Below, one piece after another: positions 60,387 to 64,000 of a DNA stretch of 64,000 bases (position 1 is the stretch's first letter; each line of letters opens with the position of its first letter). Source of the DNA: Brevundimonas sp. (GTDB lineage: Bacteria; Pseudomonadota; Alphaproteobacteria; Caulobacterales; Caulobacteraceae); NCBI GenBank assembly GCA_016742215.1, contig JACVCC010000001.1, positions 372,001 through 436,000 on the forward strand. Reading direction: 5' to 3'. The notes beneath the pieces were generated by a model that saw nothing but the letters and a program-made list of their open reading frames with translations, made no database searches and had not been told where the DNA came from. A program made the translations under genes and the position numbers.

Positions 60387-61007
60387 ATGAAGCTCTACAC
60401 CTCGCACCGCGCCCCCAACCCCCGCCGCGTCCGCTGGGTCATGGCCGAGAAGGGCATCGAGGATGTGGAGATCATCGAGATCGACATCATGGTCGGCGAG
60501 CACAAGTCGCCCGACTATCGTGCGAAGGTCGGCGTGCCCCATGTCCCGGCGCTGGAGCTGGACGACGGTACGGTCTTCTCGGAATCGCTGGCGATTGGCC
60601 GCTATCTCGAGGCCGTCTATCCCGAGCCCAACCTTTTCGGCCACGACGCGCGCGAACAGGCGGTGATCGAGATGTGGACCCGCCGCTGCGAGTTCTATCT
60701 GGCCAATCCGATCATGCTGAACGTGCGCCACTCGCACCCCGCGCTGGCCGCCCTTGAGGCGACCCAGGTCCCGCAGGTGGCCGACTACAACAAGTTGGCC
60801 GCCGAGAAATACATGCGCTCGCTGGACCGCCGTCTGGCCGAGCACGAGTTCATCGCCGAGGACCGCTTCACCATCGCCGACATCGTCGCCGTGGTCGGTC
60901 TCGATTTCGCGCGGCTGATCAAATATCGCCCGCCCGAAGAGCTGACCCATCTGGCCCGCTGGCTCGAAACCTGCCGGGCCCGCCCGGCGGCGAAGGCCGG
61001 CGCCTAG
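60387..61007 (+). CDS. Glutathione S-transferase
   Basis: The 206-residue protein has a thioredoxin-fold N-terminus (MKLYTSHRAPNPRRVRWVMAEKGI; VPALELDDGTVFSESLAIGRYLEAVYP with the GSH-binding ES) and an all-helical C-terminus (LAEHEFIAEDRFTIADIVAVVGLDFA with the N-capping box). It lacks a Cys at the start, so Ser or Tyr chemistry is likely. Probably co-transcribed with the transporter. Its stop shares CTAG with the convergent oxygenase gene. Confidence 0.9.
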   Translation: MKLYTSHRAPNPRRVRWVMAEKGIEDVEIIEIDIMVGEHKSPDYRAKVGVPHVPALELDDGTVFSESLAIGRYLEAVYPEPNLFGHDAREQAVIEMWTRRCEFYLANPIMLNVRHSHPALAALEATQVPQVADYNKLAAEKYMRSLDRRLAEHEFIAEDRFTIADIVAVVGLDFARLIKYRPPEELTHLARWLETCRARPAAKAGA

Positions 61008-62017
61008 AGCTCGAAGTCAAACGGGCCTTCTCGGGCCGGCTCGATCTTCTGGCCCTGATACAGTTGCGCCACCCGGGCGCCGAGCAGGTCGCCGGGGCCC
61101 TGCAGGAAGCGCGGCGCGCCGAAGCGTTCGATGTTGTCCAGCTGGCGGGCGAGGGCGTGGCGGTCCTGCGCGACCACCTTCTCAAGGAAGAACCGGATGG
61201 CCCGCTCCTTCAGCCAGCCCGGCCCGCGCCCCTTGGGCGTGGTGAAGCAGGCGAAGGGCGCCAGAGTGGTCGGCGTCACCGGGGTGAAGAAGACCGTCAC
61301 GCACAACGTCAGCCCGCGCGGTCCCTCCCATCGGGCCTGCACCAGTGTCGGCGAATGGAGCCGCGTCCGGCTGCGATCGCGCGGCGGCTCCAGCATGCGG
61401 GACATCCAGCCCATGTCCGGCTGGGGCTGTTCGATGATCGACTCGATCCAGTCTTCGCCCGCCTCGACCGACAGCCGCACCGGGATGCGCCGGTTGCTGC
61501 GGCGGATGATGCCGTCGTGGATGAAGTTGGTGTGGAACGGGTCCAGCACATTCTCAAGCGCATCCAGCGCCCGGCCGCGCCAGACGCCCTGCGACCACCA
61601 GAAATGATCGTGGTCCGCCGCGCCCCAAGGGCCCGGGTCCGGCAGCTCCGGCCCGCCGGGCTCCAGCCGCACCAGCACCGCGCCGTGGATCTCGCGCGCC
61701 TCGACGGTCTTCGCCTCCAGCCGCTGTCCCTAACCGGCATCCAGAGCACAGCCGGGCACGTCCACGCAGGCGCCGTCCGCTCCGAAGCGCCAGCCGTGGT
61801 AGGGACACTGCACCGTCCCGCCGACGATCTGGCCCTCGGACAGCGGATAGTTGCGGTGCGGACAGCGGTCGATCAGGGCGACGGCTCGGCCCGCCTCGTC
61901 CCGGAACAGCACCAGAGGCGTATCCGCCACCGTCCGCGCCAGCGGCCGATCCTTCAGCTCCCGCGACAGGGCCGCCATCTGCCAGCTTCGGGCGATGCTC
62001 TCGGGCAGGGGCGTCAC
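61004..62017 (-). pseudogene. Rieske [2Fe-2S] oxygenase, interrupted by an in-frame TAG
   Basis: Reading from the GTG at 62017, codons 1-95 encode a Rieske domain with both cluster pairs, CPHR near 52-55 and CPYHGW near 71-76. Codon 96 is TAG (61730-61732). The same frame continues without another stop for 241 codons and encodes the mononuclear-iron domain, including NVLDPFHTNFIHDG, the usual His/His site. Together it would be about 337 residues, normal for vanillate-demethylase or pheophorbide-oxygenase-type enzymes. CAG to TAG is the simplest cause. GTG lies in a GTGA overlap with the ATP-grasp gene, so it is the last gene of that operon. Confidence 0.8.
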
Positions 62018-63138
62018 GTCCGGCTCCAGCGGTCGGGCTCCAGCGGCTGCCCGTTCCACTCGATGTCCGCCGTCATCGCCTCCGTCAACGTCCGGCCGGT
62101 GCGCAAGGCGTCGCAGGCGAAGGCCGCCGCATCCACCAGCGCCCCGAGCGGGGGCAGAGGATCGCCCGGCGCCGACAGCACATCCTCGCCCAGCCCCCGC
62201 GCGCCGCGGCTCCAGACGGCAGGCCCCAGGCATCGCGATCGGTTCGACATCTGCGCTCGCCCCCGCCCCATCAGCGCCCGGCCGAAGTCCGCGCTGCGGT
62301 CGAACAGGTGCACGCCGCTGGTCGCGCGCGGATTGCACTCGATCAGCCACGGCCGACCGTCGGCGTCGATCACCGCGTCGAACGACAGCTGCCCGTCGCC
62401 GGCCCAGGCTGCCAGAGGCTCGATCATGCGCCGCAGCCGCTCCGTCTGTTCCGGCCCCAGCGGCTGGAACGCCAGCGCGGCGCCGCCACGGCTGCGCAGG
62501 GGAGAGCCGTAAGCCGACAGGGCGTCGATCCGTCCGTCGTTGCAGACGGCATAGACGCTGACGTCCTCGCCCCGGATGCGCTGCTGTACGGCCCAGGGCT
62601 CGGTCGGCGAGGGACGCAGCGCCTGCACCTGCTCCGGCGTCGGCCCCACCAGCGTTCTCGCTCCGAACCGCGACCAGACCGGCTTCAGCACCAGCGCCTC
62701 CAGCCCGTCGCGCGGCAGGGCGGCGGCCTCCCTCACCGTCCGGGTCTCGGGCGCGTCCACCCCCAGCGTCCGGCACAGGGCGGCGAACCGGTCCTTGGCG
62801 TGCAGGTCCGCCAGCCGTCCGGCCTCCGGCGCGAACAGCCGGTCGGCGAACCCGTCGACGGCGGCCAGGGCGGACAGGTGGAAGACCTCCTCGCAGGTCG
62901 GGATGATCCGCACCGGATCCAGCCGCGCGATCAGCGCCCGCACATCCTGCGCGAACCGGGCCGGCGTCTGAACCGGCGCGGCGTACCGGTGCACGGGTCC
63001 CGCCGTCCGCGACCAGCGCGCCAGCCGCGCGGGGCTGCAGTCGGCCAGATGCGGCTCGAACCCCGCCGCGCGCAGGCTGCGCGCCAGATCCAGCGCCGCC
63101 GCCGCCCGCGCCCCGGTGATCAGGACCCGCTCAGCCAT
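62014..63138 (-). CDS. ATP-grasp domain enzyme
   Basis: The 374-residue protein starts VLITGARAAAALDLARSLRAAGFEPHLAD, a pre-ATP-grasp Rossmann part, then RIIPTCEEVFHLSAL, LVLKPVWSRFGARTLVG (ATP-binding Lys) and GQLSFDAVIDADGRPWLIECNPRATSGVHLF, the metal-binding end. Such enzymes ligate a carboxylate to an amine or thiol. It overlaps the adenylate-forming gene by 8 bases and the oxygenase by 4, so the three form one operon. Substrate unknown. Confidence 0.88.
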   Translation of the reverse strand: MAERVLITGARAAAALDLARSLRAAGFEPHLADCSPARLARWSRTAGPVHRYAAPVQTPARFAQDVRALIARLDPVRIIPTCEEVFHLSALAAVDGFADRLFAPEAGRLADLHAKDRFAALCRTLGVDAPETRTVREAAALPRDGLEALVLKPVWSRFGARTLVGPTPEQVQALRPSPTEPWAVQQRIRGEDVSVYAVCNDGRIDALSAYGSPLRSRGGAALAFQPLGPEQTERLRRMIEPLAAWAGDGQLSFDAVIDADGRPWLIECNPRATSGVHLFDRSADFGRALMGRGRAQMSNRSRCLGPAVWSRGARGLGEDVLSAPGDPLPPLGALVDAAAFACDALRTGRTLTEAMTADIEWNGQPLEPDRWSRT

Positions 63139-64000
63139 CGATCCAGCGCACGCGCCGGCGTTTGACCACGATCTCCGGCGGCATGCCGTCCGGCGTCACC
63201 GGCAGCTCGAGCCCGCGCCGTCGCAGCAACTCCCGCACCGCGTCGGTCGCTGCGGTGACATCGTCGGGCGCGGCCTCGACCGTCACGCCGCCCGGCCCGG
63301 CGACCGCCCGCCATTCCGCCTCTGCGCCGATGGCCTCGCACACCGCATCGTCCACCGCGCGCGGCGGGATCGCCACCTCGCCCCAGCGCCACAGGTCCTC
63401 CAGCCGCCCCTCCACCGGCCGGATCGCCTGCAGCGGCGAGCGGCAGATGCAGGTCGTCGGCTCCAGCAGATCGCCCAGCCGCACCCGCACCATCGGCTGG
63501 GTGGTGCGTCTCAGATCGGTGATGATCGGCACGAACCGGTTCGTGCCTGGCACGACTTCGCGCTCGACCACCAGCACATCCTCGTTCAGATGCAGGGTCC
63601 CCAGCCGGCAGGGTGAGGCGAGGAAGCCTTCGGTGGCCTGATAGATCGGCGTGGGCCGGCTCTCGAGCACCGCCTCGATCCAGTCCCGCTCGGCGTCGCC
63701 CATGGGCTCGGCGCCTTGCAGCAGGCGACGCGGCGTCCACGGCGCGCCGGTCTCCACCCGCCGCGCCAGATCGGCCAGCACATGGGAAGGGGCGATCACC
63801 ACGTCCGGGGCGAAAGCCGCCAGCCGCTTGATCCGCTCCTCGCCCGGCGTCTCCAGCCCGAGGAACAGGAAGTGGAACGGCCCGGCGCCGGTGACGTCGC
63901 TGTAGAGGCTGGAGGTGGCCCGCAGGCACAGGGCGATCTTCGCGCCGCGGATCAGGGCCAATCGCGGCAGCAGGCGCGCGATCAGATGGCCGAGGTACCC
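63131..64000 (-). CDS. Adenylate-forming enzyme, PaaK/F390-synthetase type (partial)
   Basis: The 3' 289 codons are visible; the frame stays open to the window edge, so the 5' end is missing. Seen are DVVIAPSHVLADLARRV, EPMGDAERDWIEAVL, TPIYQATEGFLAS (adenylate-forming core), VPIITDLRRTTQPMVRVRLGD and the C-terminal IVVKRRRVRWIDG, as in coenzyme F390 synthetase-related and phenylacetate-CoA-ligase-like enzymes. It would activate a carboxylic acid as an AMP ester. It overlaps the ATP-grasp gene by 8 bases. Confidence 0.8.
   Translation of the reverse strand, partial: GYLGHLIARLLPRLALIRGAKIALCLRATSSLYSDVTGAGPFHFLFLGLETPGEERIKRLAAFAPDVVIAPSHVLADLARRVETGAPWTPRRLLQGAEPMGDAERDWIEAVLESRPTPIYQATEGFLASPCRLGTLHLNEDVLVVEREVVPGTNRFVPIITDLRRTTQPMVRVRLGDLLEPTTCICRSPLQAIRPVEGRLEDLWRWGEVAIPPRAVDDAVCEAIGAEAEWRAVAGPGGVTVEAAPDDVTAATDAVRELLRRRGLELPVTPDGMPPEIVVKRRRVRWIDG

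Follow-up and report, generated by a model that had tools for sequence, protein, structure and literature searches.

Introduction

The OleABCD system consists of four adjacent genes, whose products are a ketosynthase of the thiolase fold, a 3-keto reductase that depends on NAD(P), a hydrolase and an adenylating enzyme, and genes of the same four kinds form the core of an operon that we describe here from a Brevundimonas sp. The operon runs across the right edge of the analysed stretch of DNA (hereafter the window), i.e. 64,000 nucleotides (C4:372001-436000; contig JACVCC010000001.1) of a draft genome that is 70% complete (GCA_016742215.1). Unlike OleABCD, the present set has a ketosynthase nearer to FabH and CorB, an adenylate-forming enzyme (AFE) of the PaaK branch, and extra genes that may provide head groups. 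In addition, OleB is an alpha/beta hydrolase, whereas the hydrolase found here has the Lactamase_B fold with an HxHxDH motif, and OleC belongs to the AMP-binding family PF00501, whereas no PF00501 match was found in the AFE, whose relatives are PaaK-like only.

The AFE belongs to the enzyme family of TIGR02304, an NCBIfam model named 'F390 synthetase-related protein' with no pathway attached; members from Escherichia coli, Streptococcus and Xenorhabdus exceed its cut-off, while that of the window stays below it. MxnB and CorB, from the myxopyronin and corallopyronin systems, are the nearest solved structures to the ketosynthase, although no polyketide synthase genes were seen here. In the ornithine-lipid (Ols) pathway, a 3-hydroxy acyl chain and an amino acid are joined, O-acylated by a PlsC enzyme and then hydroxylated. 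Genes for PlsC and for an OlsE-like hydroxylase adjoin the core in some genomes, but the chain would be built here by the four core enzymes, and no OlsB or OlsF was recognized in the clusters. Finally, FemX, MprF and Sbb17 transfer amino acids from tRNA to lipids or peptides; their fold recurs, at less than 20% identity, in a GNAT-family partner found in relatives of the operon but absent from that of the window.

From the protein sequences and gene neighbourhoods compared below, we propose that the operon is a local form of a wider gene set whose product may be a membrane lipid, hitherto undescribed, with exchangeable head groups, a reading that we hold with evenly balanced confidence.

Organization of the operon

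A preliminary description of the window had reported a cluster of three minus-strand genes, for an AFE, an ATP-grasp ligase and a Rieske oxygenase, which overlapped by 8 and 4 bases, the AFE gene running off the right edge. Translation bore this out: the three frames follow one another in that order at 61004-64000, the AFE and ATP-grasp genes overlapping by exactly 8 bases (63131-63138) and the ATP-grasp and Rieske genes by exactly 4 (62014-62017), and the AFE frame leaves the window with 387 bases remaining beyond the edge. Only two of these genes are intact, the Rieske gene being interrupted by a stop codon and not whole as had been assumed. When the contig was read to the right, the extension that the preliminary description had recommended, three further overlapping genes appeared on the same strand. 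The three genes first reported are thus adjacent and overlapping as claimed, but the system is a same-strand operon of six genes and about 6.2 kb, and three genes of its core lie outside the window. The features are the following, an L006 coordinate being the window coordinate minus 54000.

L006:12202-13197, same strand as the AFE gene, outside the window: ketosynthase III (KS), FabH/CorB-like
L006:11216-12205, same strand as the AFE gene, outside the window: OleD-like short-chain dehydrogenase (SDR)
L006:10374-11219, same strand as the AFE gene, outside the window: metallo-beta-lactamase-fold (MBL) hydrolase
63131..64000, minus strand: 3' part of the gene for the AFE, F390-synthetase-related/PaaK-like, with a TIGR02304 match; whole gene L006:9131-10387, GTG start
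62014..63138, minus strand: ATP-grasp ligase, 374 aa, PRK06849-like, from predicted fold and invariant residues
61004..62017, minus strand: interrupted gene of 337 codons for a Rieske non-haem oxygenase, DdmC/VanA-like, with Rieske domain and VanA_C
61730..61732, minus strand: in-frame TAG stop within the Rieske gene (codon 96), where Brevundimonas relatives encode Glu or Asp
60387-61007, convergent with the Rieske gene, whose end it overlaps by 4 bases: glutathione S-transferase

From KS to Rieske, the junctions overlap by 4, 4, 14, 8 and 4 bases, i.e. five out of five. A chance neighbourhood was considered and rejected: because every adjacent pair overlaps by 4-14 bases and the gene order recurs in other genera and phyla, the clustering of the six genes is more than chance. 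Catalytic residues are invariant or nearly so in all six families (42-79 relatives), and the ratios of nonsynonymous to synonymous substitution (dN/dS) of the operon genes, 0.15-0.45, indicate purifying selection.

Distribution of the gene set

AFE relatives occur in 20 of the 199 Caulobacteraceae genomes, nearly all of which have the operon; Brevundimonas lenta DSM 23960 has a complete one. The gene set is found in other phyla as well; the suspicion that the three genes might be neighbours only in this genome is thereby dispelled. An alignment-based profile scan of genome_contigs yielded 383 AFE relatives, the best 80 of which were listed, while single-sequence scans with the AFE of the window returned no relatives in genome_contigs or viral_contigs. 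The neighbourhood comparison revealed that the set is conserved in other genera and phyla and is joined there by additional tailoring genes, which the preliminary description had named as a supporting result. The KS-SDR-MBL-AFE core is kept across Alphaproteobacteria, Actinobacteria, Firmicutes, Cyanobacteria and E. coli, and spans nine phylum-level groups. The order found in the window, KS-SDR-MBL-AFE-ATP-grasp-Rieske, was counted 24 times; with a GNAT gene added it occurred 13 times, without the Rieske gene six times, and the bare core 12 times. Permuted orders exist too, e.g. KS-ATP-grasp-SDR-MBL-AFE-GNAT without Rieske in gut lineages and Paenibacillaceae; the absence of the oxygen-using Rieske enzyme from gut anaerobes is as expected.

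In the AFE tree, Halomonadaceae are nested with strong support inside a Sphingomonadales group, a placement that is a sign of transfer between classes; the idea that the cluster is confined to Caulobacterales was therefore rejected. Three Asticcacaulis loci (L071:7900-12900, L075 and L084) show the order KS-AFE-ATP-grasp-GNAT-Rieske, with SDR and MBL absent at the locus. The Pseudomonas amygdali megaplasmid pMPPla107 carries a lone F390-synthetase-related gene (L158:8905-10203) with no KS, SDR or MBL nearby.

Among plasmid records, a protein search retrieved one from E. coli with the neighbourhood narI-core-PAP2-FA_hydroxylase-FA_desaturase-purU. Of 5426 complete E. coli genomes, 672 (about one in eight) carry the core, those of sequence type 131 (ST131) among them, and its location is nearly always chromosomal. 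In the ST131 strain 4993 the cluster lies between narI and tRNA-Tyr, a site occupied by ychS, rttR and tpr in K-12 MG1655, which has no cluster.

NZ_CP103557.1 2948962-2955843 (L165:4001-10882), between narI and tRNA-Tyr/purU, ST131: seven-gene cluster KS-SDR-MBL-AFE-PAP2-fatty acid (FA) hydroxylase-FA desaturase

Between the core proteins of E. coli and those of the window, identity is 33-37%. No relative of the E. coli AFE was found in phage records.

Families and active sites of the core enzymes

The best model for the KS is PRK07204 (326.8 bits), along with FabH types, while PRK09258 scored 106 against a cut-off of 285. Solved OleA was not among its structure matches at 1e-20, no OleA sequence having been compared directly. 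Its Cys-His-Asn triad is conserved in relatives, as is the Tyr-x3-Lys motif of the SDR, whose two best NCBIfam models are both OleD (168.6 and 161.6 bits). The MBL protein resembles zinc hydrolases of the N-acylhomoserine lactone (AHL)-lactonase type, with a conserved HxHxDH motif. These assignments invite comparison with a non-orthologous OleABCD system, in which KS would act as OleA, SDR as OleD, AFE as OleC (beta-lactone formation) and MBL as OleB, yielding a beta-lactone or a long-chain olefin. Although the four roles correspond one-to-one and the SDR does point to OleD, we consider this very unlikely, given that the SDR scores lie far under the OleD cut-off of 580, that the KS is closer to FabH and CorB, that neither the AFE nor the hydrolase belongs to the family of its counterpart, and that an olefin needs no ATP-grasp, glycosyltransferase or sulfotransferase genes.

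The AFE matches TIGR02304 at 2.5e-58 with 198.1 bits, under the cut-off of 251.9; its relatives score 748.5 bits (E. coli ST131) and 530 bits (Streptococcus). Across 79 relatives, little or no variation was seen in its A3 motif, YQATEG or the C-terminal Lys, and its relatives of solved structure are PaaK, AjiA1 and PaaK-like ligases. A distant relationship to phenylacetate-CoA ligase, together with the frequent role of VanA/DdmC-like Rieske enzymes in the degradation of aromatics, could suggest ordinary phenylacetate or aromatic catabolism; a phenylacetate operon was what the preliminary description had named as a refutation. Such catabolism can hardly be right and is already contradicted: the PaaK model, with a cut-off of 646, gives 18 bits, genes for paa functions or ring cleavage are absent within 20 kb, and the constant partners of the AFE are KS, SDR and MBL.

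Exchangeable neighbours of the core

The variable genes around the core are, from their sequences, mostly of lipid type. LplT-PlsC-Aas genes adjoin it at three loci (L067, L115 and L125); in L125 the overlap between AFE and Aas is 4 bases. By a crude Poisson estimate, the probability that 3 of 80 loci have an Aas neighbour by chance is about 1.5e-5, for a gene picked once the data had been seen. Glycosyltransferases of family GT28 or GT21 (ceramide glucosyltransferase-like) occur at nine loci, none of which has the ATP-grasp gene (hypergeometric probability 3.5e-6, or about 1e-3 when collapsed to five lineages). PAP2_3 genes precede KS in Moraxella and Verrucomicrobiales; in E. coli the PAP2_3 gene follows AFE. 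The FA_hydroxylase that accompanies FA_desaturase in the E. coli cluster has OlsE as its best NCBIfam match, far below the cut-off. FA_desaturase and sulfotransferase genes lie beside the core in a Flavobacteriales bin, and sulfotransferase genes in Paracoccus and Ketogulonicigenium. On the Rhizobium plasmid pMK-2 (L163:10316-12479), the core is followed by genes for a DUF3419 protein and for a 368-aa protein without Pfam or NCBIfam match; the DUF3419 family includes the betaine-lipid enzyme BtaA. A solved-structure search with the E. coli FA_hydroxylase and the DUF3419 proteins gave no match.

In the window, the corresponding position is taken by the ATP-grasp protein. Its predicted model (predicted local distance difference test, pLDDT, 95.5) has PurD/PurK, PylC and L-amino-acid ligases as nearest folds, with Z scores of 25.7 for PurD, 21.6 for PylC and 20.7 for BacD, and K152, E267, N269 and R271 are invariant in 53 relatives. 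In its modelled fold, conserved Lys and E-x-N metal ligands, it resembles amide ligases. In Caulobacter and Asticcacaulis a GNAT-family protein (Acetyltransf_6) is encoded by a seventh gene between ATP-grasp and Rieske, and in many relatives it replaces or accompanies these two. Its fold is a tandem GNAT, whose structural matches to Sbb17, FemX and MprF span Z 14-19 (18.9, 18.0 and 15.8, respectively, over about 250-280 residues) at the low identity noted above.

It is this swapping of neighbours around a constant core that leads us to propose a lipid backbone with exchangeable head groups. The same genes also bear on a different reading, i.e. that the product is a diffusible specialized metabolite or signal, such as a short acyl or polyketide amide or a pyrone, with the KS joining two short chains in the manner of CorB and MxnB, the ATP-grasp enzyme adding an amino acid and the Rieske enzyme tailoring the product for export. 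We judge this unlikely, since several phyla have LplT-PlsC-Aas, PAP2, FA hydroxylase and desaturase, or GT21 genes coupled to the core. Nevertheless, several features speak for it: MxnB and CorB are the nearest solved relatives of the KS, AjiA1 and a PaaK-like ligase are among those of the AFE, KS is often faced by a divergent TetR regulator gene, an ATP-binding cassette (ABC) exporter lies within the Limnothrix cluster, and specialized metabolites typically show a patchy distribution, carriage on plasmids and transfer, as this gene set does.

Proposed pathway

In the proposed lipid pathway, the KS would join an acyl thioester to a second acyl or malonyl thioester by a C-C bond, the SDR would reduce the 3-keto group to an alcohol, the MBL hydrolase would release the acid from a thioester or lactone, and the AFE would re-activate the released carboxylate as an adenylate. 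These four conserved steps could give a hydroxylated, fatty-acid-derived backbone, to which a second, exchangeable module would add a polar group. In the version of the window, the ATP-grasp enzyme would attach an amine or amino acid via an amide bond and the Rieske oxygenase would finally hydroxylate or desaturate the product; elsewhere, the head-group slot may be filled by a FemX/MprF-like transferase, glycosyltransferases, DUF3419 proteins, sulfotransferases, or PAP2 or PlsC enzymes. We infer every chemical step from sequence, and the order KS-SDR-MBL-AFE-ATP-grasp-Rieske is the most likely one. The preliminary description had suggested the building and tailoring of a small molecule; a conserved biosynthetic set is indeed present, but the neighbours of the core elsewhere point to a lipid and not to an unspecified small molecule.

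In its widest and more tentative form, the proposal would define a new class of bacterial membrane lipids, with a range extending from Brevundimonas to E. coli ST131 and cyanobacteria. The backbone, made by the core independently of the glycerolipid and sphingolipid routes, would have two chains or be hydroxylated, and interchangeable genes would add amino acids, sugars, sulfate or other groups.

Several points weigh against the lipid proposal. To our knowledge, no product, mutant or biochemical datum exists for any member, and in none of the clusters was a gene for an acyl carrier protein identified. OleA-type models are more distant from the KS than are FabH and the pyrone-forming CorB and MxnB, so that a polyketide-like product must be allowed for. 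The lipid-type neighbours were selected after inspecting the loci, each kind occurring in few of them, and most alphaproteobacterial operons, including that of the window, hold no gene diagnostic of lipids alone. As to the GNAT partner, a common fold is not proof that it uses aminoacyl-tRNA. It is because we know of no product, because our literature coverage was open-access and because the lipid neighbours were singled out post hoc that we do not go beyond even confidence.

No description of the gene set was found in the open-access papers searched, subscription journals lying outside the scope of the search. An F390 synthetase-like gene is present in a fatty-acid cluster in a paper on ladderanes (PMC2649909), in which no link to the present gene set was found. 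A transposon mutant of Psa3 IYO_RS29540, a gene annotated 'Coenzyme F390 synthetase' that may or may not be a member of the AFE family, is among reduced-virulence mutants (PMC9823363).

A conserved set found in E. coli, ST131 included, and in nine phylum-level groups would alter what is known of these cell envelopes or chemical signals, and the exchange of head-group genes round one core would offer a clear example of how the assembly of lipids or metabolites evolves in modules. In E. coli, a tractable species, the core is present beside the nar genes.

Interruption of the Rieske gene

The Rieske gene of the window matches the Rieske domain at 7e-25 and VanA_C at 4.5e-10; DdmC is the nearest solved structure, in a search made with an intact relative. 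Its motifs, C-x-H...C-x2-H and D-x2-H-x4-H, are invariant in 42 relatives. The in-frame TAG at codon 96 of 337, where Brevundimonas relatives have Glu or Asp (GAG, GAC or GAT), separates the Rieske cluster from the iron site, and the frame is therefore not intact as a Rieske oxygenase. Compared with two relatives, the gene shows dN/dS values of 0.19-0.30, alike before and after the stop, against 0.22 between intact relatives. Because constraint is normal on both sides, either the gene was lost very recently or the assembly is in error at this base. At several loci of the Brevundimonas group (L050-L053, L088 and L031) the Rieske gene is absent while the ATP-grasp region is complete, and the loss is therefore tolerated; in the genome of the window the Rieske step has probably been lost or is being lost.

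A broader decay of the operon in this organism, with the Rieske gene already a pseudogene and the final product no longer made, would be compatible with any reading of the core. The stop codon and the loci lacking the gene speak for this, yet we find it somewhat unlikely: purifying selection acts on the remaining five genes, the Rieske gene itself evolves like its intact relatives, and a single base in a draft of this completeness may be an error.

Flanking genes

A two-component system is encoded upstream of the operon. The glutathione S-transferase flank is kept in other operon-bearing Brevundimonas, whereas the opposite flank differs.

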